Shown here: piece after piece, positions 1,815 through 13,419 of the stretch
Layout: every line of letters starts with the position of its first letter
Numbering within the stretch: position 1 is the first letter of the stretch
Source: a virus
Virus record (IMG/VR): IMGVR_UViG_3300022539_000375
Location: 1-30,167 of that record
Strand: one strand, 5' to 3'
DNA length: 30,167 bases
Translations under genes and position numbers: made by a program
The notes under the pieces: model-generated
Told to the model about the DNA's origin: nothing
The model's database searches: none
The model's input: the letters and a program-made list of their open reading frames with translations, nothing else

Positions 1815-1955
1815 TTATCCATTCTTCAAATTGCATCGCATTTCTGTCGCCTGATTAAGACAACCAATAAGATATTTCTGATATTCAGATTCCAATATTC
1901 GCCTTGCTTTTCGTGCTCCTCTTTTACCCAGTATTTGCTCTAATGTTTTTTTCAT
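1815..1955 (-). CDS. Small hypothetical protein, 46 aa
   Basis: The ATG overlaps the stop of the upstream methyltransferase (ATGA), a typical translational-coupling junction. The product starts MKKTLEQILGKRGARKARR and is basic in its first half, with no recognised domain. It lies between the methyltransferase and the glycosylase and ends 17 bases before the glycosylase start, filling the gap exactly. I do not recognise it; the junction is the main support. Confidence 0.55.
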   Translation of the reverse strand: MKKTLEQILGKRGARKARRILESEYQKYLIGCLNQATEMRCNLKNG

Positions 1956-2668
1956 TTCTTTTTTACCAATCCAAATGATGCTTTTTTTGTTTTTATTTTC
2001 TTCCTCGACTTTTCAAACAAATTTGGTCTTACACCTCTCAATCTCTTCCTTGTAATCTCACAATATTTTTCAGAAATATCTATACCGATGTATCTACGGC
2101 CTAACATTTTGGCAGCTACACAGGTTGTGCCTGAACCACAGAAGGGGTCAAGGATAATATCATTAGGATTAGAAAATCTCCTTATACACCAACGAATAAT
2201 ATTAAGGGGTTTTGGACAAGGATGATTTTTGTCCTTGCAACTTCTCAAAAATCCTACCTCCGCTCCACCTGAATAATGAATACTATCAGATTTTAATATA
2301 CCATTTATAGAACCGAATCCTTTTACGTCTTCACCGTAGAATAATATTGGTGTCCATTGACATATGCCACATCTTCCATAACCTGCGGTAGTATCCCAAG
2401 AATATGATAAAATCCAATCAGCTGGTGGATATATCCAAAGGTTTTTAATATAAGAAAACATTATCGCTCTTAACGAAATGTCTTTAATGCGTGGAACACT
2501 TTTGTCTAATAGCAATTTAAGATTCTCAAGAGTATCCTTATATAAATCATATTTCCAATCCAAACCATACGGTGGGTCAGTCAGTACCAAATCCACACAA
2601 TTATCCGGCCAATCTTTCATAACCTTCAGACAATCGCCACAGATGATTTTGTTAATTGGTAAATCCAT
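1952..2668 (-). CDS. DNA methyltransferase, beta-type motif order (DPPY first)
   Basis: A 238-residue amino-methyltransferase. It shows motif IV TDPPYGLDW near residue 31, and motif I as ILDPFCGSGTTCVAAKMLGRRYIGID near the C-terminus. This order is typical of beta-class N6-adenine or N4-cytosine enzymes, which use S-adenosylmethionine. The C-terminal tail (RKKIKTKKASFGLV) closely resembles that of the second methyltransferase at 9907-13203 (KKKMKKKKERESFGLI), and the N-terminal INKIICGDC resembles INEIIYGNC there, so the two are probably paralogues. The first codons overlap the end of the zinc-ribbon gene upstream; the stop overlaps the start of the 46-aa gene downstream. Target sequence cannot be read. 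It may protect phage DNA from host restriction. Confidence 0.88.
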   Translation of the reverse strand: MDLPINKIICGDCLKVMKDWPDNCVDLVLTDPPYGLDWKYDLYKDTLENLKLLLDKSVPRIKDISLRAIMFSYIKNLWIYPPADWILSYSWDTTAGYGRCGICQWTPILFYGEDVKGFGSINGILKSDSIHYSGGAEVGFLRSCKDKNHPCPKPLNIIRWCIRRFSNPNDIILDPFCGSGTTCVAAKMLGRRYIGIDISEKYCEITRKRLRGVRPNLFEKSRKKIKTKKASFGLVKKK

Positions 2669-2804: not shown

Positions 2805-3336
2805 TCTCACTTTCTTCAATCTTTCCCATATATATATTTTTAATTCTCTTTTGGAAAATCCGTACCCAAACTTCTCTATCATTATTCACTTCCGTGTTAC
2901 AAGAGCGACATAAACTAATCAAATTTTTGGGATTATTTTTCATTTTATCATAATCAATATGATGAATGGAAAGCCTCTCATTATTATTTCGTTCTTGTTT
3001 CTTACCACAGAGTTGACAAATATAATTATCACGTTTGCGAATACTTCCTCTTATTCGCTTATACTCAAGTGGATATGATTCAAAAGAAATTCCGCCACGC
3101 CAATTCGAATGATTTTCAAGATATTTCTTCACAGATTTACTTATTTTCTTTTTGGTTTCCTCCGATTTTGGTATCCCATACATATGACTCCGTTCACCTT
3201 TATGAGATTCACTTATCTTTCTATTATGCTCCTCAGAGTGAACTAAATTAGGATTCATCTCTTTCGTTATACCTCGTAGTGCTTTACCCAACTTTCTTTT
3301 ATGCTCTTCCGTTTTTTGGTAAACGCCTGTAAGCAT
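2719..3336 (-). CDS. Freestanding HNH homing endonuclease with NUMOD3 repeats
   Basis: The N-terminal half carries NUMOD3-type DNA-binding repeats (HSEEHNRKISESHKGE and KSEETKKKISKSVKK). The C-terminal half has an HNH nuclease: CQLCG, then SIHHIDYDKMKNNPKNLISLC and a second Cys pair. These enzymes cut intron- or intein-free alleles and spread their own gene. The start (ATG 3336) overlaps the stop of the clamp gene (TAATG). The last ~36 residues (from about MGKIEESEN, with LLLRLLLLV) do not look like part of the domain and overlap a zinc-ribbon gene in another frame, suggesting insertion of the endonuclease into an existing operon with loss of its own stop. Confidence 0.88.
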   Translation of the reverse strand: MLTGVYQKTEEHKRKLGKALRGITKEMNPNLVHSEEHNRKISESHKGERSHMYGIPKSEETKKKISKSVKKYLENHSNWRGGISFESYPLEYKRIRGSIRKRDNYICQLCGKKQERNNNERLSIHHIDYDKMKNNPKNLISLCRSCNTEVNNDREVWVRIFQKRIKNIYMGKIEESENDFLSSLLLRLLLLVCQQQETCSVLVLQ

Positions 3337-4352
3337 TATTCTATTACTCCCAGAACGGTTATATAGACAAATTTCTCACCCGTGACTTTCAGACGGCTGG
3401 ATGATACCTCACACTTATTATACTGCCTTACCAATTCCATCAGTAACTTTGCTGGTATAGTAAATTGCAATGGTTCGCCACTGTATTTTGATTTCTTGAT
3501 TTCAGTGAACCAGCCCGATGCTCCCTTGCCAGTGATTTTGAATTTAGTTGGTTTGAGGTCAACAATGATATTACTACCCTCAACATTCTCGGATGAAAAT
3601 ATTTCAGCCTTCTCGACAGCTTCCTTCAGACCTTTTGGCAGCACTAATGGTTTCCCTTCACTTCCCTTCAAAATCTTTGTTATGTCTTCAGTAGGATAAT
3701 CCTCCACAAAATGACGGCAACTGAGAGTCAATCCAGTAGAATTCCCAAAATGAATCCAATGTTTTGTCTCGCTGAATTTTGTCATATCCAGCGACACAAT
3801 ATGCTTCAATGACTCCTTTCTTATTAATACAGATTCGGATATATCAGTCTTTATTCTGAATCGGGTCACCTGATGATTATCACAAGCCTCCATCCACTTT
3901 GAGCAAATATGTATACAAGTCATAACAAATTGGGCTTCATTACTACCGGCACAAGGATGGACGATTGAAACAGCATCGGCAAAATTGGTAGGCAGGTCTT
4001 TCCATTTCTTTGGGGTTTCAACTGTTTCAATAGGAAGTAAAATGTCTTGTTCCATTCGGATACCCGACCGTCTATGTTTACCCTTAACAAGCAATTGAGT
4101 ATGTTTACTACTGACATCTATTTCCAATTCCTCCTCTTGCAATTTGCGAAGGATGGAAATAAGGGGCATAGCTTGCACTGCCCCTTCAATGTTCAACATA
4201 GATTTTTGTGAACAGGCTATTTCATCATTGTACGTGCGAATCGCTTTGTCCTTGAAAATGAAACAGGATGATTGTTCTATGATTTCCCTGGTTGATAGAC
4301 CTGGCAATACCGATTCCAATTGCTTTAGTAATTCTTCACGGTTGATTCTCAT
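3336..4352 (-). CDS. dnaN-like: DNA polymerase sliding clamp, DnaN-like
   Basis: A 338-residue protein whose layout fits a beta clamp (usually about 360-370 residues). The N-terminal domain is MRINREELLKQLESVLPGLS, followed by a short strand and a FIFKD segment. The middle has repeated strand-helix blocks. The C-terminal end, FTIPAKLLMELVRQYNKCEVSSS then EKFVYITVLGVIE, matches the last strand pattern of clamp proteins. Clamps encircle DNA and tether the polymerase. Strong Shine-Dalgarno AAAGGAG precedes the ATG. Neighbours (glycosylase-polymerase, helicase, primase) support replication. Sequence similarity is structural-pattern level, so a search would be needed to exclude another clamp class. 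Confidence 0.72.
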   Translation of the reverse strand: MRINREELLKQLESVLPGLSTREIIEQSSCFIFKDKAIRTYNDEIACSQKSMLNIEGAVQAMPLISILRKLQEEELEIDVSSKHTQLLVKGKHRRSGIRMEQDILLPIETVETPKKWKDLPTNFADAVSIVHPCAGSNEAQFVMTCIHICSKWMEACDNHQVTRFRIKTDISESVLIRKESLKHIVSLDMTKFSETKHWIHFGNSTGLTLSCRHFVEDYPTEDITKILKGSEGKPLVLPKGLKEAVEKAEIFSSENVEGSNIIVDLKPTKFKITGKGASGWFTEIKKSKYSGEPLQFTIPAKLLMELVRQYNKCEVSSSRLKVTGEKFVYITVLGVIE

Positions 4353-4370
4353 TTGTTTCTCCTTTTACTC

Positions 4371-5306
4371 TCAAAATAAAGTTGGTCTATTATCTACTTT
4401 TGGAAAATATTTTGGAGGATATGGCTCTGTAGAATAAAGAGGAATATGACAAGCCCAAGAATATATCCTTTTGAATTCCAAATTGTCTTGCACTTTTTTG
4501 TCTCTGTCCAACATTACAAATACCAATTGGTCTGCATCTCGTAAAATATTTATTCTTGTTAAAACAGTTTCTACACTATCAGTTATTCCTACATAAATAT
4601 ACCATCTTGTTTGCCATTTTTTCAATCCGTTCTTCTGCAATATTTCTAATGCTTTTAATACAGATTTTTTATAAGAAATATGGTCAAAAGCAAACCTAAT
4701 TTTTGCAGTTGATGGTTTTCTTGAACCACCCCAGTCTGCCCAATATTGTAAAGTAAATATTTCTTTACAAATTTTATTCGTCAAAAGTCGGTGGTCAAAT
4801 CCTGAGTTAAAGTCAACTCGAAGTTTTTCCTTTTTAATTTGTTTAGTTATTTTGAAAAATTGTTCAGGTAAACCAAGTATATTATTATCTAAAAGTGTGA
4901 TAATTTTTGCTTTCCCATCCCATATATCATAAATATCACCAGTAATTTGACATTGGCCTTCCTTTTGTTGTACAATACACCAAGAGCAATCTCGCACACA
5001 TCCCCTTGTAGTAAACCCAATATTTTTTCTTGGCTTAATTCTCTCTATTTTCAACGGTAATTTTTTTGTTATGTTATAGCCACTTCCACCAATCTCCGCG
5101 ATACCCTCCCATTTTCTACAAAAATGCTTATTATAATCAAATATACAAGAAACATAAATTTTATCATAATCATTTACAAACAATGGTAGAACTGATTTAT
5201 CTTTTATTTGAATAACTTTATCACCTCTTTTTTTGTAATAAAATTGGAGTTTTTGTAAAGCTATATTTGGAATTACACTATCAACGTCAACCAATAAAAT
5301 TCTCAT
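4371..5306 (-). CDS. Radical SAM protein
   Basis: From ATG 5306 the protein is 311 residues. It carries the radical SAM cluster motif RGCVRDCSWC (C103, C107, C110; CxxxCxxC), which binds a 4Fe-4S cluster and cleaves S-adenosylmethionine. The N-terminal ~60 residues (MRILLVDVDS, then a helix and YDKIYVSCIF) resemble the Rossmann-like or B12-binding-like N-domain often fused to radical SAM cores. A longer frame starts at TTG 5330, but that lies inside a hairpin, and ATG fits better. It sits between the clamp and a lysine-rich protein, in the replication arm. Substrate is unknown; phage radical SAM proteins of this kind are rarely characterised. Confidence 0.82.
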   Translation of the reverse strand: MRILLVDVDSVIPNIALQKLQFYYKKRGDKVIQIKDKSVLPLFVNDYDKIYVSCIFDYNKHFCRKWEGIAEIGGSGYNITKKLPLKIERIKPRKNIGFTTRGCVRDCSWCIVQQKEGQCQITGDIYDIWDGKAKIITLLDNNILGLPEQFFKITKQIKKEKLRVDFNSGFDHRLLTNKICKEIFTLQYWADWGGSRKPSTAKIRFAFDHISYKKSVLKALEILQKNGLKKWQTRWYIYVGITDSVETVLTRINILRDADQLVFVMLDRDKKVQDNLEFKRIYSWACHIPLYSTEPYPPKYFPKVDNRPTLF

Positions 5307-7027: not shown

Positions 7028-7846
7028 TCATATATTTTGAAAATTGATAAGTTTTTCTTTTAATCGTTCTCTATTTTCCCTCCGTAATTCACATTCCCAA
7101 ACAATAAGTGTTCTAAAACCATATTTTGCAAAATGTCTTACTCTGCAATTTTCATGTTTCTTTATAGAAACACCCGTAACTTTTTTACTATGCCAGTAAT
7201 TACCAAACATTTCTATAACTTTCTTTTGACCGTTGATATTTATAAAGTCTGGATTTTTACATCCTATCCAAAATGTTCCATCCCCTACATACTTATATTC
7301 ATTTGGAAATAAATGATTCAATCTATTTCTTAATCTTCTCTCTGGTTTAGTTGGTCTTAAATCATATCCAGCAAAAATAGCTTTGAGTTGTTTCTCTCTG
7401 TATTCGGGATTTTGCCAAAGTTTTCTTCTGGATTTACCTATCTTTCTTTTTGCTTTCTCAGAGTGATGTTTTCCTGTCATACCTTTGTGATTTTCACGCC
7501 TTTTCCTTGCACCCTCCACTCCATAAAGTTCTTCCCAAGTCCCTTTATTCTTCCCCTCCATAGATTTGCCTATTTTCTTTTTAGTTTCCTCAGAGTGAGG
7601 TTTATGTTTTCTATTTTTATTAGCACAATCAATTGAACAATATTTTTTAGTAGAAGTCATTTTGACTTTGAATTCGTTATCACATTCTGGTCTTTCACAA
7701 ATCCTAACTTCTCTTAATGTTCTATTTTTACCTGTATGAGCAATACTCATTCTTTCTAATGTTTCTTTTGAAAGATTTTCCCGTTTATGAGATTCACTCA
7801 TTTTTGCTATTGTTTTTTCTGTCCTTATATAAACTCCCGTTGGCAT
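7028..7846 (-). CDS. Freestanding EDxHD (Vsr-like) homing endonuclease with NUMOD3 repeats
   Basis: ATG 7846 (MPTGVYIRTEKT) has AAAAAGGAT upstream and is preferred over a start 15 codons earlier. The N-terminal part has NUMOD3-type repeats (HSEETKKKIGKSMEGK, HSEKAKRKIGKSRRK) around a Cys motif (CERPEC, YCSIDC). The C-terminal part has PTKPERRLRNRLN, NPDFININGQKKVIEMFGN, HENCRVRHFAKYGFRTLIVWECEL: the E, D, H and E positions fit the restriction-like EDxHD nucleases. It has its own strong promoter and a leader hairpin, a known style of freestanding phage homing genes. It probably targets a nearby conserved gene. Confidence 0.85.
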   Translation of the reverse strand: MPTGVYIRTEKTIAKMSESHKRENLSKETLERMSIAHTGKNRTLREVRICERPECDNEFKVKMTSTKKYCSIDCANKNRKHKPHSEETKKKIGKSMEGKNKGTWEELYGVEGARKRRENHKGMTGKHHSEKAKRKIGKSRRKLWQNPEYREKQLKAIFAGYDLRPTKPERRLRNRLNHLFPNEYKYVGDGTFWIGCKNPDFININGQKKVIEMFGNYWHSKKVTGVSIKKHENCRVRHFAKYGFRTLIVWECELRRENRERLKEKLINFQNI

Positions 7847-7864
7847 TCCATATCCTTTTTCTAA

Positions 7865-7925
7865 TAAAAGTACCCAAAGCTTGAACAGCATAAACCACAG
7901 GGGAAATGCACTTTGGGTACTTTTA
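7865..7925 (-). repeat. Leader hairpin, 15-bp perfect arms, 31-nt loop
   Basis: TAAAAGTACCCAAAG at 7865-7879 is matched by its exact reverse complement at 7911-7925. It lies between the promoter at 7970-7997 and the ribosome-binding site of the homing endonuclease. In phage T4, freestanding homing genes are often controlled by leader hairpins near the start; a similar role is inferred here. Confidence 0.7.
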
Positions 7926-8503: not shown

Positions 8504-9910
8504 TTAAAAACAGCTTTTCACCGCAGGATTTGCCACTGCTAAACATCCGTAAACATAAACGCAGTCGATGGCAAAGAATTCGTCATCCCGTAACGATACC
8601 CAATTCAATCTCATTAATCCTTTCTTTTTTTCATCCGCTGTTTGATTTATCCCTATCATCCCGGTAACAGAATCAATCTTGCGTCTATCATCTGTAAAGT
8701 TATCCATCTTCATTGTCTCTCTATTGTAGGATGCAGTATCAGATTGGGTGGCCGTTAGCAATAGGCAATGTTGCCTTTGGGATAATGCTCGTAATTGCTT
8801 CCATGTCTTGTCTATTGTATCACGGCCTTCCAATCCTGGATATTCCATATTTAGAATATCAGCATAGTCAATCACTATTATATCTGGAATCCATTCTTCT
8901 TCCCTCTCCCAATCCTGTAGAATACTTTGGATTCCGTTAACACTGAGAGTTGAATTAAAATGACAGGAGAGTTTGAAGTATGATTCTTTACTCATTATTT
9001 TTTTTTGCATCACTCTCCTACAAGCCTTTCTTGCTCTTCTCCAACTCAATTTATTTTCAAATTCTTTCTCTTTCCAGTCTCGATATAGTTTTCTTATTCC
9101 CTTTTTGTTCCTCTTTCTTACAAGTTCTGTCGGATATTCTATTGTGCAAGGCCTGCGGGGATGTTTGGTAACACGAGTCATCAATCGTCTCATTGTTTGG
9201 TTTTGCCCCATATCGCCAATCTCGAACATCGCTACCTTTTTCCGTTGTACCATTCCTTGATAAGCCATTTCTTGCAACCAAAATGATTTACCCACTCCCT
9301 TTTTTCCCATAAAGGCAACGAAGCCTTCATGTTCCAATGAACCTCTGAAAAATTGTCCGAGTGCCCCTGGGAATTTAATTAGTGATTCTTTTTTATCTGC
9401 GAATGCCTCCCTAATAGCCTCCTCATTTTGTAGTATATCAATTCCCTCACCCACTCCCATCTCAACCTTGCTATATCCAATTAGGCGATTGTGAGCATCA
9501 CCTGCTTTGCCTTCACTAATATCAGATTCAACTGATTCAATTAACCTTTCAATCCTTACTTGATTAAAATAATAACCCGCAATATCAATTATATAATCAC
9601 TATTGCTCTCCTCTCCCAGTTCTTCATATTCCTCACTCAGTGAATCCAAAAACCTGCTTACCAAACTTATTGTACTCTTGTCTTCAGTTTTAGCAGACCA
9701 GTTTTCAAATAGACTTTCAATATGCTTCATTGGTGCCTTATCATATCTTTTGTAATAATTCAAACACCATTTAGCGATTATATTTGCCCATTTGGATTTG
9801 AACATTCGGTATCGCCATTTGGAAGCAATTCGGCCAAGCACAATTGGGTCAACAATCATCCCAATAAGTATTCGCCTTTCCTGGTCACTGTTTTTCTTGT
9901 CAATCCTCAT
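8504..9910 (-). CDS. dnaB-like: Replicative DNA helicase, DnaB-like
   Basis: 468 residues. The N-terminal ~180 residues are helical. The RecA-like core has Walker A GKKGVGKS (202-209), Walker B DIIVIDYAD (343-351) and a TATQSD motif (386-391) as in DnaB family helicases. The enzyme would unwind DNA ahead of the fork as a hexamer. A long basic insertion (about 260-310, RKLYRDWKEKEFENKLSWRR) separates motifs 1a and 2. The start overlaps the stop of the methyltransferase gene (ATGA), so the two are translationally coupled. The primase is about 6 kb upstream in the same direction. Confidence 0.9.
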   Translation of the reverse strand: MRIDKKNSDQERRILIGMIVDPIVLGRIASKWRYRMFKSKWANIIAKWCLNYYKRYDKAPMKHIESLFENWSAKTEDKSTISLVSRFLDSLSEEYEELGEESNSDYIIDIAGYYFNQVRIERLIESVESDISEGKAGDAHNRLIGYSKVEMGVGEGIDILQNEEAIREAFADKKESLIKFPGALGQFFRGSLEHEGFVAFMGKKGVGKSFWLQEMAYQGMVQRKKVAMFEIGDMGQNQTMRRLMTRVTKHPRRPCTIEYPTELVRKRNKKGIRKLYRDWKEKEFENKLSWRRARKACRRVMQKKIMSKESYFKLSCHFNSTLSVNGIQSILQDWEREEEWIPDIIVIDYADILNMEYPGLEGRDTIDKTWKQLRALSQRQHCLLLTATQSDTASYNRETMKMDNFTDDRRKIDSVTGMIGINQTADEKKKGLMRLNWVSLRDDEFFAIDCVYVYGCLAVANPAVKSCF

Positions 9911-12900
9911 ATCAATCCAAATGATTCTCTTTCCTTCTTTTTCTTCATTTTTTTCTTTGGCTTATCTTCAAATAAATTTGGCGTGACATTTTTCAATCTT
10001 GCTCTTGCAATTTCACAATATCCCTTATCTTTCTCAATCCCAATATAATTGATTCCAAACTCCTTACAGGCTACACAGGTTGTTCCTGAACCTACAAACG
10101 GGTCTAAAATAATTTGGCCTTTGTTTGGCATTTTCAAAAGCATACAAAGATATTGCATAAGTTGGAGTGGTTTTACTGTGGGATGAAAATTGCCTTTTAT
10201 TTTATTACGTTGTCGAATAGGAGATTCACATTTACAAGCTGATTTTCTATTAGGATTTTGAAAAATATATCCACCACAATTACCACATTTATCAAATCTA
10301 TTATGTCCTACTTCTTTTTCCATCTTTCCACACCCTGCGTTCCTTTCACCTCTGCTGGCTTTGGCTACGTAGAAAAAACGGGAGGCACCACCGGAACTTG
10401 ATGGATTAAAAACCTCTCGTTGATATTGTTTACTATAAGTGTTAAAATTACCACCTTTTGCTACTGACTGCATTTTTCCAGAAGATAATTCACCACTCTG
10501 TTTATCCAACATCTTTGCAGAGCAATTGGGATTATAAATTCCTCTCCCTGTTGGTTCAAAATATTTTAACCATTTTTTAGGTATGTCGCAAGCAAGGATT
10601 TCAAGTCTTCGTTCTCTTTGTGAAGTCTCATTAGTTTTTTTATTAGTTTGTGATGTTTTTGAGTGTGATTTATATTGTTTGTTATTTCCAAATTTATTAT
10701 TCTGTTGTCGTCTTTGATTCCGTTTTTGTGATGAACGATTTCGTTTCTCTTTAATGGTCTTCCTAATTTTATTGCCATTTTTAGACGATGTTCTATTATT
10801 ACACTCCTTTTGGTCATCTTCCGAGCCATTGCCAATTCTGTCGGATTTAACTCTTGGAGATTGATGTAACGATATCCCTTCCACACATATATGCCTTTGT
10901 AAATCGGATTGTCTTTGCCGTATTTTGCTCTTTTCCTCTGTGTTCTGCTCATTTTTCTTATTGATTTTGGAAGATGCTTTTTTCCGAACCTTGGATGAGT
11001 CTTGCCTCTTATGTTTTTGCTTAGCCATCCCCAATAACATTTCTTGCTGCAAAATCTGGTTCGATTTATTCTGCTTGGGTATGTCTGATACTCTTTTTGG
11101 CACATTTGGCAATTTGTAATCATAATAATACTCCTTAATTGCCTGTATTATACCAATCTCTGCTTTGTTAGTCAAATATAAAATAGGAATAAATTCCTCA
11201 TCCAATATCACATTGGCAGGCCAGCGACCTTGAGCTGTATCATCTCTAAAACCCATTCCTTTTTGATAAGTTTTATTTGTCTTAGCCATAAAACCTCGTA
11301 ATGGACTATTTAAACCTCCACCACCAAATCGCTCCCCTTGTTTCGATTCTATCCGTCCCCCATCTATGTTCAACCCTGCGACACCCCATTTCTCAGCATT
11401 CTTTGCAAAATTACCGTCAACAGGTTTCATACAAACCAAGATTGGTTCCCAAGAAGGCTTTAATCCCGTACCATATCCATCCCAGAGTTTGGCAAGTTTG
11501 GTCTGTGGTTTACCAATCGTTTTTGTTTGTACACCCTCTCCATAACATCCAGAAGGACTTGGCCCACTTTTTCTTGAATTCGGAGAAATAATACTTTTCC
11601 TAAATTTCTTCCAAACTCTCTCAAATTCTTTTTTCGTAGGTTTTCTACCAAGTTTTCTTATTAACCGTTTTCGACATTCTTGTTTGTCGAATTCCTTGCC
11701 TATATCTTTACTTTTGGGAAAGCCTGAATTGCCTGTAATAAATATCTTTCCGTTTCGGCGGGCTACAAAAGCTCCCGTAGAAACTCGGACGCACCAAACT
11801 TTTCCATTATATTCTATTGGGGTTATCGAAGCTTTTGTCCTTCGTATATTTTGTGAGCTTTGTTGGTTGGGAAAAGCATTAAGTTGTTTAGATTGTTGTT
11901 GGTTGGATTGTGGTCTATATGATGAACTGTTTCTCTTCTTACTAAACACCATTTTAGATGTCTGGCCATTATCAATCGATGTTCTATTATGTACCCATCT
12001 TTGCGAGCCATTGACAAATACTTTTTTGGGCATCGAATATATTTTATAGCAAATTTTCCATAGTTTCCCTTCTTCCTGAAATATGTTACACCACCTTTCC
12101 ATGCTGGATCGCCTGCTCCCATTCTTTTCAAACGATAATCTTCCTTGGTTTTTTCTGACCAACCATCTCTGCCTTTGCAACCATATTTTGCCCATTCTTT
12201 TCCACGAAGAACACCATTGCATTGTTTTGAACAGCAAGGATTTATTACTCGTTTTATGTGTTTTGTATTTCTGTAAAACTTTTTTCCACAAACAAAACAA
12301 ATTACTTTCGATTTTCCTTTGTGTCGTTTTGCGGGTCTGCTGCGGTCTATTCGTCTCAGATTTGTTATTTGGCATTCTTTTGAGCAAATCTTGTTTCTTG
12401 ATGCTTGTACGTGATTGCTTGTTATAAATGGTTTCAGGCAAATCTTGCAAACTTTCCAAAAAGGGTATATTCTTTTTGCATTTCCATGTTTCTGGCCTTT
12501 GAAATACCCAATCTCCGTTTTGTTCAACAATACAGCAATGTCCTTGGGAGACAATTTGGTCTGTAAAATCTGATTTAATTCTATAAGCGGTATATTTGTT
12601 TTCATAACAGAAACTCTCTTTAGGCTTATCAAATATAAATTCATCTTTTTCTATATTATAACATAATACAATATCATTGTCAATGGTTTTATGGTAATGT
12701 TTCCACCCTTCTATAGTTAATATTTCAGTATCTTCACTTAGACATCCATACAACCACATTAAACAATCACGAATCTGCCAACCAGCATCCTCGATTGCAC
12801 AAGTTAATCTATGAAAAGTACGAGTACCACCAAATACCAGCATAAATGCTCCGGGCTTGGCGATACGCAAACATTCTTTAGCCCATCGAGTAAACCATTG

Positions 12901-13203
12901 TTGGAATTCTGTATTTGCTTCTAACGAAAAATTATATTCACCTGCATACATTGAACGTCCTTGCCTTTTAGGATTCTTATGACCTCTGTTCTTAAACTGT
13001 TTGTTAATATAATCAGGTTTGAAGGTATCCCATTTTTTTGACATAAATCCTAATCCATATGGAGGGTCAGTTATGATTGAGTCAATACAACTATCAGGGA
13101 ATCTCTTTATAATTCTTCTACAATTACCATAAATTATTTCATTTATTGGCAATTCTTCTATATTGATTCTTTTATTTTTGGACTTTTTACTCCCTTTTTT
13201 CAT
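9907..13203 (-). CDS. DNA methyltransferase with an intein and a nested HNH insertion, 1098 codons
   Basis: Residues 1-153 carry motif IV TDPPYGLGF (DPPY at 46-49) and end WLYG. An intein follows, and then SGFPKSKDIGKEF. The C-terminal region has HPTVKPLQLMQYL and ILDPFVGSGTTCVACKEFG. The beta-type order suggests an N6-A or N4-C enzyme. After splicing the product would still be about 760 residues. It carries an extra ~190-residue Lys/Asn/Arg/Gln-rich stretch (about 694-880) that is the shadow of an HNH gene in the +1 frame, between conserved-looking WPANVILDEE and AKMLDKQSGE. The N-terminus lacks a good Shine-Dalgarno site. Coupled to the DnaB-like gene. The native core looks intact, but whether the bulky insertion is tolerated is unknown. 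Confidence 0.85.
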   Translation of the reverse strand: MKKGSKKSKNKRINIEELPINEIIYGNCRRIIKRFPDSCIDSIITDPPYGLGFMSKKWDTFKPDYINKQFKNRGHKNPKRQGRSMYAGEYNFSLEANTEFQQWFTRWAKECLRIAKPGAFMLVFGGTRTFHRLTCAIEDAGWQIRDCLMWLYGCLSEDTEILTIEGWKHYHKTIDNDIVLCYNIEKDEFIFDKPKESFCYENKYTAYRIKSDFTDQIVSQGHCCIVEQNGDWVFQRPETWKCKKNIPFLESLQDLPETIYNKQSRTSIKKQDLLKRMPNNKSETNRPQQTRKTTQRKIESNLFCLWKKVLQKYKTHKTSNKSLLFKTMQWCSSWKRMGKIWLQRQRWLVRKNQGRLSFEKNGSRRSSMERWCNIFQEEGKLWKICYKIYSMPKKVFVNGSQRWVHNRTSIDNGQTSKMVFSKKRNSSSYRPQSNQQQSKQLNAFPNQQSSQNIRRTKASITPIEYNGKVWCVRVSTGAFVARRNGKIFITGNSGFPKSKDIGKEFDKQECRKRLIRKLGRKPTKKEFERVWKKFRKSIISPNSRKSGPSPSGCYGEGVQTKTIGKPQTKLAKLWDGYGTGLKPSWEPILVCMKPVDGNFAKNAEKWGVAGLNIDGGRIESKQGERFGGGGLNSPLRGFMAKTNKTYQKGMGFRDDTAQGRWPANVILDEEFIPILYLTNKAEIGIIQAIKEYYYDYKLPNVPKRVSDIPKQNKSNQILQQEMLLGMAKQKHKRQDSSKVRKKASSKINKKNEQNTEEKSKIRQRQSDLQRHICVEGISLHQSPRVKSDRIGNGSEDDQKECNNRTSSKNGNKIRKTIKEKRNRSSQKRNQRRQQNNKFGNNKQYKSHSKTSQTNKKTNETSQRERRLEILACDIPKKWLKYFEPTGRGIYNPNCSAKMLDKQSGELSSGKMQSVAKGGNFNTYSKQYQREVFNPSSSGGASRFFYVAKASRGERNAGCGKMEKEVGHNRFDKCGNCGGYIFQNPNRKSACKCESPIRQRNKIKGNFHPTVKPLQLMQYLCMLLKMPNKGQIILDPFVGSGTTCVACKEFGINYIGIEKDKGYCEIARARLKNVTPNLFEDKPKKKMKKKKERESFGLI
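10566..11123 (-). CDS. HNH endonuclease nested in the +1 frame of the methyltransferase
   Basis: 185 residues from ATG 11123 with a very good Shine-Dalgarno site (AAGGAG, seven bases upstream). N-terminal Cys motif (CQMCQKEY, FCSKKCYWG), a basic linker, then SVIIEHRLKMAIKLGRPLKRNEIVHHKNGIKDDNRIINLEI, a typical HNH core of phage endonucleases. The host methyltransferase frame remains open throughout. There is no room for a group I intron around it and no intein blocks are visible, so it appears to be a plain gene insertion inside a coding sequence. It probably acts as a homing endonuclease. Confidence 0.88.
   Translation of the reverse strand: MITNCQMCQKEYQTYPSRINRTRFCSKKCYWGWLSKNIRGKTHPRFGKKHLPKSIRKMSRTQRKRAKYGKDNPIYKGIYVWKGYRYINLQELNPTELAMARKMTKRSVIIEHRLKMAIKLGRPLKRNEIVHHKNGIKDDNRIINLEITNNINHTQKHHKLIKKLMRLHKENEDLKSLLATYLKNG
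11728..12744 (-). mobile_element. Intein in the methyltransferase, 339 codons, endonuclease slot read in another frame
   Basis: Residues 154-492. It begins Cys (CLSEDTEILTIEGWKHYHK, block A). A block B-like segment is DQIVSQGHCCIVEQNG. It ends with KVWCVRVSTGAFVARRNG, then ITGN and Ser as the +1 residue (blocks F and G). Removing it joins WLYG to SGFPKSKDIG, a normal methyltransferase sequence. The middle (about 80 to 310 of the intein) reads as low-complexity Lys/Gln/Ser/Trp-rich text that does not look like any protein, because the real coding frame there is the HNH gene one base over. The exact splice residues are convincing; splicing activity is not shown. Confidence 0.88.
11823..12605 (-). 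CDS. HNH endonuclease nested in the +1 frame inside the intein
   Basis: The ORF ends (11823) exactly where the C-terminal intein blocks begin. Its start is less clear: ATG 12605, with AAGAGAG upstream, gives 260 residues, of which the first ~30 overlap intein block B and may not be native. It has Cys pairs (CKICLKPF, CSKEC; CFVCGKKF, CCSKQC) and then YIIEHRLIMARHLKWCLVRRETVHHIDHNPTNNNLNNLMLF, a full HNH core. So the nuclease sits where a homing domain normally is, but out of frame. Separate initiation, +1 frameshifting or a pair of compensating frameshifts could explain it. Confidence 0.82.
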   Translation of the reverse strand: MKTNIPLIELNQILQTKLSPKDIAVLLNKTEIGYFKGQKHGNAKRIYPFWKVCKICLKPFITSNHVQASRNKICSKECQITNLRRIDRSRPAKRHKGKSKVICFVCGKKFYRNTKHIKRVINPCCSKQCNGVLRGKEWAKYGCKGRDGWSEKTKEDYRLKRMGAGDPAWKGGVTYFRKKGNYGKFAIKYIRCPKKYLSMARKDGYIIEHRLIMARHLKWCLVRRETVHHIDHNPTNNNLNNLMLFPTNKAHKIYEGQKLR

Positions 13204-13242
13204 TTTTGGACTTTTTTATATAATATCTTTTCAAACTGCCTT

Positions 13243-13290
13243 TCTCTCTACTACCTACCTACTACGTAGGTAGTAGTTGTAGATAGAGAG
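13243..13290. repeat. Imperfect long hairpin before the methyltransferase operon
   Basis: CTCTCTA and TAGAGAG form outer arms; inside, CTACTACCTAC pairs with GTAGGTAGTAG around a 7-base loop, with a bulge on one side. It lies 40 bases upstream of the methyltransferase start. There is no T-run. It may be an operator or a leader structure. Confidence 0.55.
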
Positions 13291-13346
13291 AAGTCGGCTA
13301 TGTCAGGATTTTGTATTTTTAACTTATTTGACTTGTTTTTTGATAT
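13251..13346 (-). CDS. Possible 31-aa leader peptide with an ATA start
   Basis: AAAGGAG is followed six bases later by ATA, then TCA AAA AAC: read as MSKNKSNKLKIQNPDIADF and so on, ending in two consecutive TAG stops within the hairpin. The spacing and protein-like text suggest a gene whose ATG has become ATA; chance is also possible. Confidence 0.3.
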   Translation of the reverse strand: MSKNKSNKLKIQNPDIADFSLSTTTTYVVGR

Positions 13347-13373
13347 GAGTGACTCCTTTCACCATAAAATACA

Positions 13374-13419
13374 AAACCACCTGCTACTTATGAACCAGTA
13401 AGTTCGTAACAGGTGGTTT
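13374..13419 (-). terminator. Probable leftward terminator
   Basis: AAACCACCTG and its exact complement CAGGTGGTTT flank 26 bases. On the minus strand the second arm runs into TTTTGTATTTT. It would end transcription of the lipoprotein/small-peptide unit before the methyltransferase operon. The long loop is unusual. Confidence 0.5.

Follow-up and report, generated by a model that had tools for sequence, protein, structure and literature searches.

The methyltransferase gene, its intein and the overlapping HNH gene

The window analysed here is the whole stretch of 30,167 nucleotides held in IMG/VR record IMGVR_UViG_3300022539_000375 (positions 1 to 30,167), the DNA of an uncultured tailed phage in which terminase, portal and helicase genes were seen. 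A large DNA methyltransferase gene in this window harbors an intein, an HNH endonuclease gene written one base over and a second insert with an HNH gene of its own, as follows:

9907..13203, minus strand: N4/N6 DNA methyltransferase reading frame, 1098 aa (N6_N4_Mtase, E=5e-28; phrog_67)
11728..12744, minus strand: intein of 339 codons, Cys1 to Asn339, with Ser at +1 (junctions, invariant residues, Hint fold)
12376..12744, minus strand: N-terminal portion of the Hint splicing domain (residues 1-123 of the intein), containing blocks A and B (AlphaFold pLDDT at or above about 90 for residues 1-120)
12520..12564, minus strand: block B (TDQIVSQGHCCIVEQ), which also encodes part of the HNH N-terminal domain (the two frames have similar amino-acid identity here)
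11848..12375, minus strand: disordered intein linker, residues 124-299, the shadow of the HNH gene (pLDDT below 50 nearly throughout; pairwise identity down to 0.10)
11728..11847, minus strand: C-terminal portion of the Hint domain (residues 300-339 of the intein), containing blocks F and G, VWCV...GAFVARR...FITGN (alignment, AlphaFold)
11823..12605, minus strand: +1-frame gene for the HNH endonuclease, 260 codons and a stop codon, with ATG at 12605 and an alternative upstream ATG at 12644
12614..12620, minus strand: AAGAGAG, 8 nt before the ATG at 12605, possibly a weak Shine-Dalgarno-like site
12372..12449, minus strand: first four-Cys zinc motif of the HNH protein (C53, C56, C74, C78; invariant)
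12219..12299, minus strand: second four-Cys zinc motif (C103, C106, C125, C129; invariant)
11853..11981, minus strand: HNH core (H209, H228-H229, N237/N241, H251)
10522..11193, minus strand: second, non-intein insert in the methyltransferase, codons 671-894
10566..11123, minus strand: second shadow HNH gene (NUMOD3 and HNH_3), +1 frame (reading-frame listing and domain matches)

The methyltransferase reading frame (13203-9907, minus strand) is not interrupted anywhere and hosts both inserts; a second, short methyltransferase without inserts (1952-2668, minus strand, 238 aa) matches the ends of the large one. The intein junctions, marked by slashes, read ...DCLMWLYG/CLSEDTEILT...RNGKIFITGN/SGFPKSKDIG, with the Cys1 codon starting at 12744 and the Asn339 codon ending at 11728, and the first-pass annotation, which had called an intein with Cys1, Asn339 and Ser+1 and with its splicing blocks in the methyltransferase frame, had these coordinates exactly right. 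Measured against class 1 inteins, the N-terminal nucleophile is present as Cys1, invariant in 41 aligned intein members; the Thr/Ser-x-x-His motif of block B is kept as S66 (in at least 90% of the aligned members) and H69 (invariant); and Asn339 is invariant, with Ser at +1 in all members displayed. A penultimate His is missing, Gly338 being invariant in the aligned members, and LAGLIDADG inteins at the same insertion site likewise lack this residue, which is usual in inteins and not obligatory. Class 3 inteins have no Cys or Ser at position 1 and carry a triplet of Trp (block B), Cys (block F) and Thr (block G). The window intein recalls them in an invariant block-F Cys (C318) and block-G Thr (T337), found alongside the invariant Cys1; despite these two residues, class 3 is ruled out by the presence of Cys1 and the absence of the block-B Trp. 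The Hint fold was recovered in the AlphaFold model, with both parts at a pLDDT of about 90 or above and the linker mostly below 50, and by Foldseek. In this regard, the AceL NrdHF intein (PDB 6zgq) ranked first in both the profile search (E=5e-8) and Foldseek, and the other matches of the Hint domain were also inteins.

The first-pass annotation had further described a complete HNH endonuclease with zinc motifs, one base over from the intein frame, and the +1 reading frame, the invariant cysteines and matches to HNH_3 and PHROG families bear this out. Its placing of the gene between blocks B and F was half correct: the stop codon (11825-11823) comes shortly before block F, with about 33 codons left to Asn339, but the first HNH codon falls at intein codon 47, so that the gene also covers block B (codons 61-75). 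Since the HNH gene begins before block B and ends before block F, the block B stretch encodes two conserved proteins. Similarly, the intein frame is indeed open over the roughly 260 codons that had been described as non-protein-like, but only codons ~124-299 have that character. From the ATG at 12644 the HNH product would have 273 aa; relatives and register favor the ATG at 12605 (260 aa). HNH_3 was detected in 37 of 40 members (E<=0.01), and the window HNH scored 21.9 against a cut-off of 24.8, with PHROG HNH families matched at E 1.8e-15. Its AlphaFold model is well folded (mean pLDDT 87.9), and the packing of its domains is unsure, since pTM is only 0.43; a Foldseek search with this model found no significant solved relative, I-HmuI appearing only at E=2.7.

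Residue 1 of the HNH protein lies 139 nt past Cys1 in most members, a fixed register, and an ATG stands at this position in 28 members versus 18.6 expected. Among intein-type members, a Shine-Dalgarno-like site together with a start in the HNH frame was found 13 times versus 6.5 expected, a modest family-wide enrichment, and the AAGAGAG of the window was not counted by the family consensus test. No ATG occupies the common start in 19 of 47 members, which must therefore use other starts. Support for a putative internal initiation of the HNH gene, drawn from these sites and the ATG enrichment, is thus modest. Alternatively, a +1 programmed ribosomal frameshift inside the intein could bring ribosomes into the HNH frame, which would yield a fusion of the methyltransferase N-terminal half with the HNH and would suit both the constant +1 relation to the host frame and the members without ATG at the common start. 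We consider this unlikely: almost all members have a stop in the HNH frame that falls inside the intein and precedes the HNH start by tens of nt, and this leaves only a short window for a shift and argues against a long fusion, and in-frame starts and Shine-Dalgarno-like sites are modestly enriched (slippery sites were not surveyed systematically).

Recurrence in relatives and conservation of both frames

Relatives were collected in two ways. Among 71 viral contigs listed after selection by the HNH protein alone, 69 carry the HNH wholly within an open methyltransferase frame, always at +1, and in 49 contigs the intein C-terminal junction was present and Cys1 could be located. Selection by the intein C-terminus gave 80 loci, 74 of them readable by motif, and the +1 HNH was found in 55 of these 74. 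An in-frame HNH, which the first-pass annotation had named as the observation that would refute its reading, was sought in the 74 readable loci and found in none (0/74). In-frame LAGLIDADG-type endonucleases occupy 15 of the 74 (Pfam support was checked on four, one being above its cut-off), and L176 and L195 are of the same type by eye; L170 resembles a mini-intein without endonuclease, and L180 is truncated. Departures from the common layout were also seen: in L155 a stop interrupts the HNH frame while the intein frame remains open, L073 has an HNH without its N-terminal part, and in L199 the intein frame seems to be shifted past the HNH, with blocks F and G lost.

Clustered at 90% identity, the HNH proteins fall into about 60 groups, with a common +1 frame. 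The same layout is present in LR756508, a named metagenomic assembly of 484 kb, and since this is the only one among 50,697 phage records to match most of the HNH length, the layout is less likely to be met in an isolate-based survey; all intein-type members are metagenomic. A scan of genome contigs with 40 HNHs gave 12 matches, an earlier scan of genome contigs gave none, and a whole-methyltransferase peptide scan of viral contigs gave none either. Members in bacterial assemblies are presumably prophages or binned phage DNA. A match on a Curtobacterium plasmid was discarded, its HNH lying outside any methyltransferase shadow frame. The first-pass annotation had wavered between an intermediate and a stable arrangement in which a single DNA segment specifies both a disordered linker and a distinct nuclease; the number of clusters, LR756508 and the fixed register strongly support the stable arrangement, and nothing was found in favor of an intermediate.

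Chance as a source of the open intein frame is ruled out by synonymous shuffles, a codon-context test and 29 HNH controls. Indeed, the simulation of stop-free length foreseen by the first-pass annotation, run under a dinucleotide random model, gave 17.8 stops per 260 codons, and 0 of 2000 runs were stop-free. When the window HNH was shuffled synonymously, the intein frame had 0 stops versus 18.8 expected and the third frame 26 versus 21.0; over 48 intein-type genes, the corresponding values were 0 versus 602 and 776 versus 734. HNH codons ending in T before AA, AG or GA numbered 0/2204, versus 36.7% elsewhere, whereas the host C-extein, used as a control, showed no avoidance (0.315 before these dinucleotides versus 0.343 elsewhere). 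Accordingly, the H251 codon, which precedes Lys, is CAC in 42/42 members, because CAT before Lys would create a stop in the intein frame, whereas the unconstrained H228 is CAT in 35/42; and linker residue Q298 is invariant because CAC AAR, shifted by one frame, reads CAA. In the 29 control HNH loci, none of which lies in a methyltransferase shadow frame, the equivalent frame has about the expected number of stops. Stop counts are 34 versus 31.8 expected in L042 (a free HNH) and 18 versus 17.2 in L047, where a same-family HNH in antisense separates two methyltransferase halves (2868-5036).

Constraint on both proteins was observed in the pattern of divergence. Pairwise identity in the intein frame is 0.4-0.8 at both ends and drops to 0.10 at its lowest across the linker, and within the linker-only part the third position of HNH codons differs most often. 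Where block B and the HNH gene overlap, amino-acid identity is 0.67 and 0.69 in the two frames at 65-72% DNA identity, and the least variable position is HNH position 1, i.e., intein position 2. We propose that selection maintains the HNH protein, the Hint domain and the stop-free intein frame, the linker sequence being a by-product. It could still be argued that the HNH is a fossil, a former nuclease now carried as a passenger in an intein that continues to splice; the interrupted HNH frame of L155, under an open intein frame, does indicate that decay occurs, and the incomplete HNH of L073 points the same way. As an account of the family this is improbable, considering that the eight zinc cysteines are invariant in 41-42 diverse members, that the core residues are invariant or nearly so, that HNH codon position 3 is the most variable, and that the window HNH is intact and modelled with confidence.

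Group I introns commonly carry HNH enzymes, and the element might on this ground be an intron or another RNA-level element with a free HNH reading frame, the open host frame being incidental. This is scarcely tenable. No Rfam covariance model matched positions 9800-13400 even at E<=1, and the group I/II intron reading was rejected in the absence of any ribozyme match; a stop-free host frame in every intein-type member, against the hundreds of stops expected, would be needless for an intron; and the residues at the termini and in blocks B, F and G show little or no variation, with a Hint fold predicted by AlphaFold. Finally, although only the assembled sequence was at hand, without reads, two compensating indels concealing an ordinary in-frame HNH intein are refuted by the recurrence of one frame in about 60 clusters and by the dual-coding overlap, since block B and the HNH N-terminus share DNA in different frames and no indel pair could yield such a layout.

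Further shadow genes and the proposed route of mobility

The second shadow HNH of the window (11123-10566, minus strand) was overlooked by the first-pass annotation; here, the host frame has 0 stops versus 11.0 expected. The host-frame ends of its insert ('FIPILYLTN...IKEYY' and 'LACDIPKKWLKYFEP') were found again in L008, so a domain boundary may be conserved. In L008 (3541-7113), one methyltransferase reading frame holds three shadow HNHs, two at +1 and the third at +2. Furthermore, a non-intein class of relatives (L061-L085, L203, L205, L206) has no intein blocks and an empty site, YGSGFPKS, with a same-family HNH slightly downstream of it, again at +1; L203 is from the isolate Cupriavidus necator UYPR2.512. 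In a tree of the HNH core, based on only 104 columns, these non-intein (site C) HNHs fall among the intein HNHs, and well-supported branches force at least three changes. We infer that an HNH whose shadow frame is free of stops can insert at new sites and leave translation of the host protein uninterrupted. In a separate NUMOD3-type endonuclease gene of the window (7028-7891, minus strand), the other frames are rich in stops (21 and 33).

Shadow-frame HNHs may represent a widespread and unrecognised group of frame-entangled homing elements, whose evolved stop-free shadows let them lie within host coding genes and pass from one to another with translation uninterrupted, in inteins and bare elsewhere, a proposal to which we give slightly less than even odds. 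If it holds, the intein-borne shadow would be spliced out, and bare shadow inserts would occupy several other sites in the same enzyme.

Regarding mobility, divergence across 703 pairs correlated at 0.66 between Hint and HNH, 0.25 between extein and Hint, and 0.43 between extein and HNH; the pairs are not independent, so these values are descriptive only. Since the Hint-HNH correlation is the highest, Hint and HNH seem to move as one unit, apart from the host gene. Relatives with empty intein sites exist, and in other relatives in-frame LAGLIDADG inteins occupy the same site. We therefore read the element as a mobile intein that overlaps, in the +1 frame, a separate gene for its homing endonuclease, and estimate the probability of this reading at about 85%. 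Architecture, conservation, stop avoidance, constraint on both proteins and co-inheritance of Hint and HNH are direct observations; splicing, internal initiation, the cleavage site and homing are inferred from knowledge of these families, with no experiment behind any of them. As a mobile intein with an overlapping nuclease gene, the locus would work in the following way. Ribosomes would translate through the intein frame to give the 1098-aa precursor, from which the Hint domain (N-part of ~123 aa, C-part of ~40 aa) is predicted to excise itself and the ~175-aa disordered linker, ligating WLYG to SGFPKS. A second initiation within the intein, at the ATG at 12605, may supply the free 260-aa nuclease with its double zinc motif, which would cut intein-less methyltransferase alleles at or near YG/SGFPKS, and repair would then copy the intein and the HNH into the cut allele.

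Overall, this is probably a conserved packaging of a mobile element in many uncultured phages, with the nuclease written in the shifted frame of the intein and serving, probably, in homing. The same DNA would encode protein splicing in one frame and homing in another, a pattern kept in phages from many environments, and it offers a large natural data set on the evolution of overlapping genes, including a stretch in which constraint acts on a splicing block and on a nuclease domain at once. It also provides a testable account of how a coding gene can take in a nuclease gene and stay intact.

Comparison with known systems

Inteins have until now been taken to bear their endonuclease as an in-frame domain, to lack one, or to be divided by a free gene. 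The standard layout of an endonuclease-containing intein is not met here, given 0/74 in-frame HNHs and a disordered linker. In fractured genes and split inteins, a free-standing endonuclease lies apart from the splicing domain, whereas the host gene of the window is unsplit and its nuclease and intein overlap; because the host is a single unbroken reading frame (13203-9907), neither arrangement applies. No description of an intein whose endonuclease is encoded in a different frame was found in the literature searched, which did not cover the Gosselin 2025 preprint on 'Non-Canonical Architecture' (10.1101/2025.01.02.630785), and the priority of this layout is accordingly uncertain.

HNH enzymes encoded in group I introns, such as I-HmuI (PDB 1u3e), are alike in that the nuclease has its own reading frame inside a splicing element, but the element described here is expected to splice as protein and must stay translatable in the host frame. 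The AceL NrdHF class 3 split intein (PDB 6zgq) is the best profile and fold match and shares the block-F Cys and the Thr before the C-terminus, whereas the window intein is continuous, with an invariant Cys1.

Out-of-frame HNHs in phage methylases have been described as the ShiLan domain, the nearest known counterpart of the element, for which no splicing domain was found and which was judged to be neither intein nor intron (Arsenault, Gosselin & Gogarten 2025, PMC11855218). The ShiLan domain (PMC11855218; Gosselin 2023, PMC9957025) resembles our element in its out-of-frame zinc-motif HNH, in the phage DNA methylase family that it occupies, in the stop-free host frame and in a patchy distribution. 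However, it lies at a different site with the HNH in the third frame (+2), versus +1 in the window intein, and the window HNH overlaps a real intein, block B included; membership is ruled out by the intein blocks, the +1 frame and the different site. Moreover, an intein of the same methylase family is known from actinobacteriophages, e.g., Starcevich gp66 (Gosselin 2023, PMC9957025). This intein has the identical insertion site (WLYG/C...GN/SGFPKS) and near-identical blocks F and G, but carries an in-frame LAGLIDADG endonuclease domain, as do 15 such relatives, where the window intein has its HNH gene one base over.
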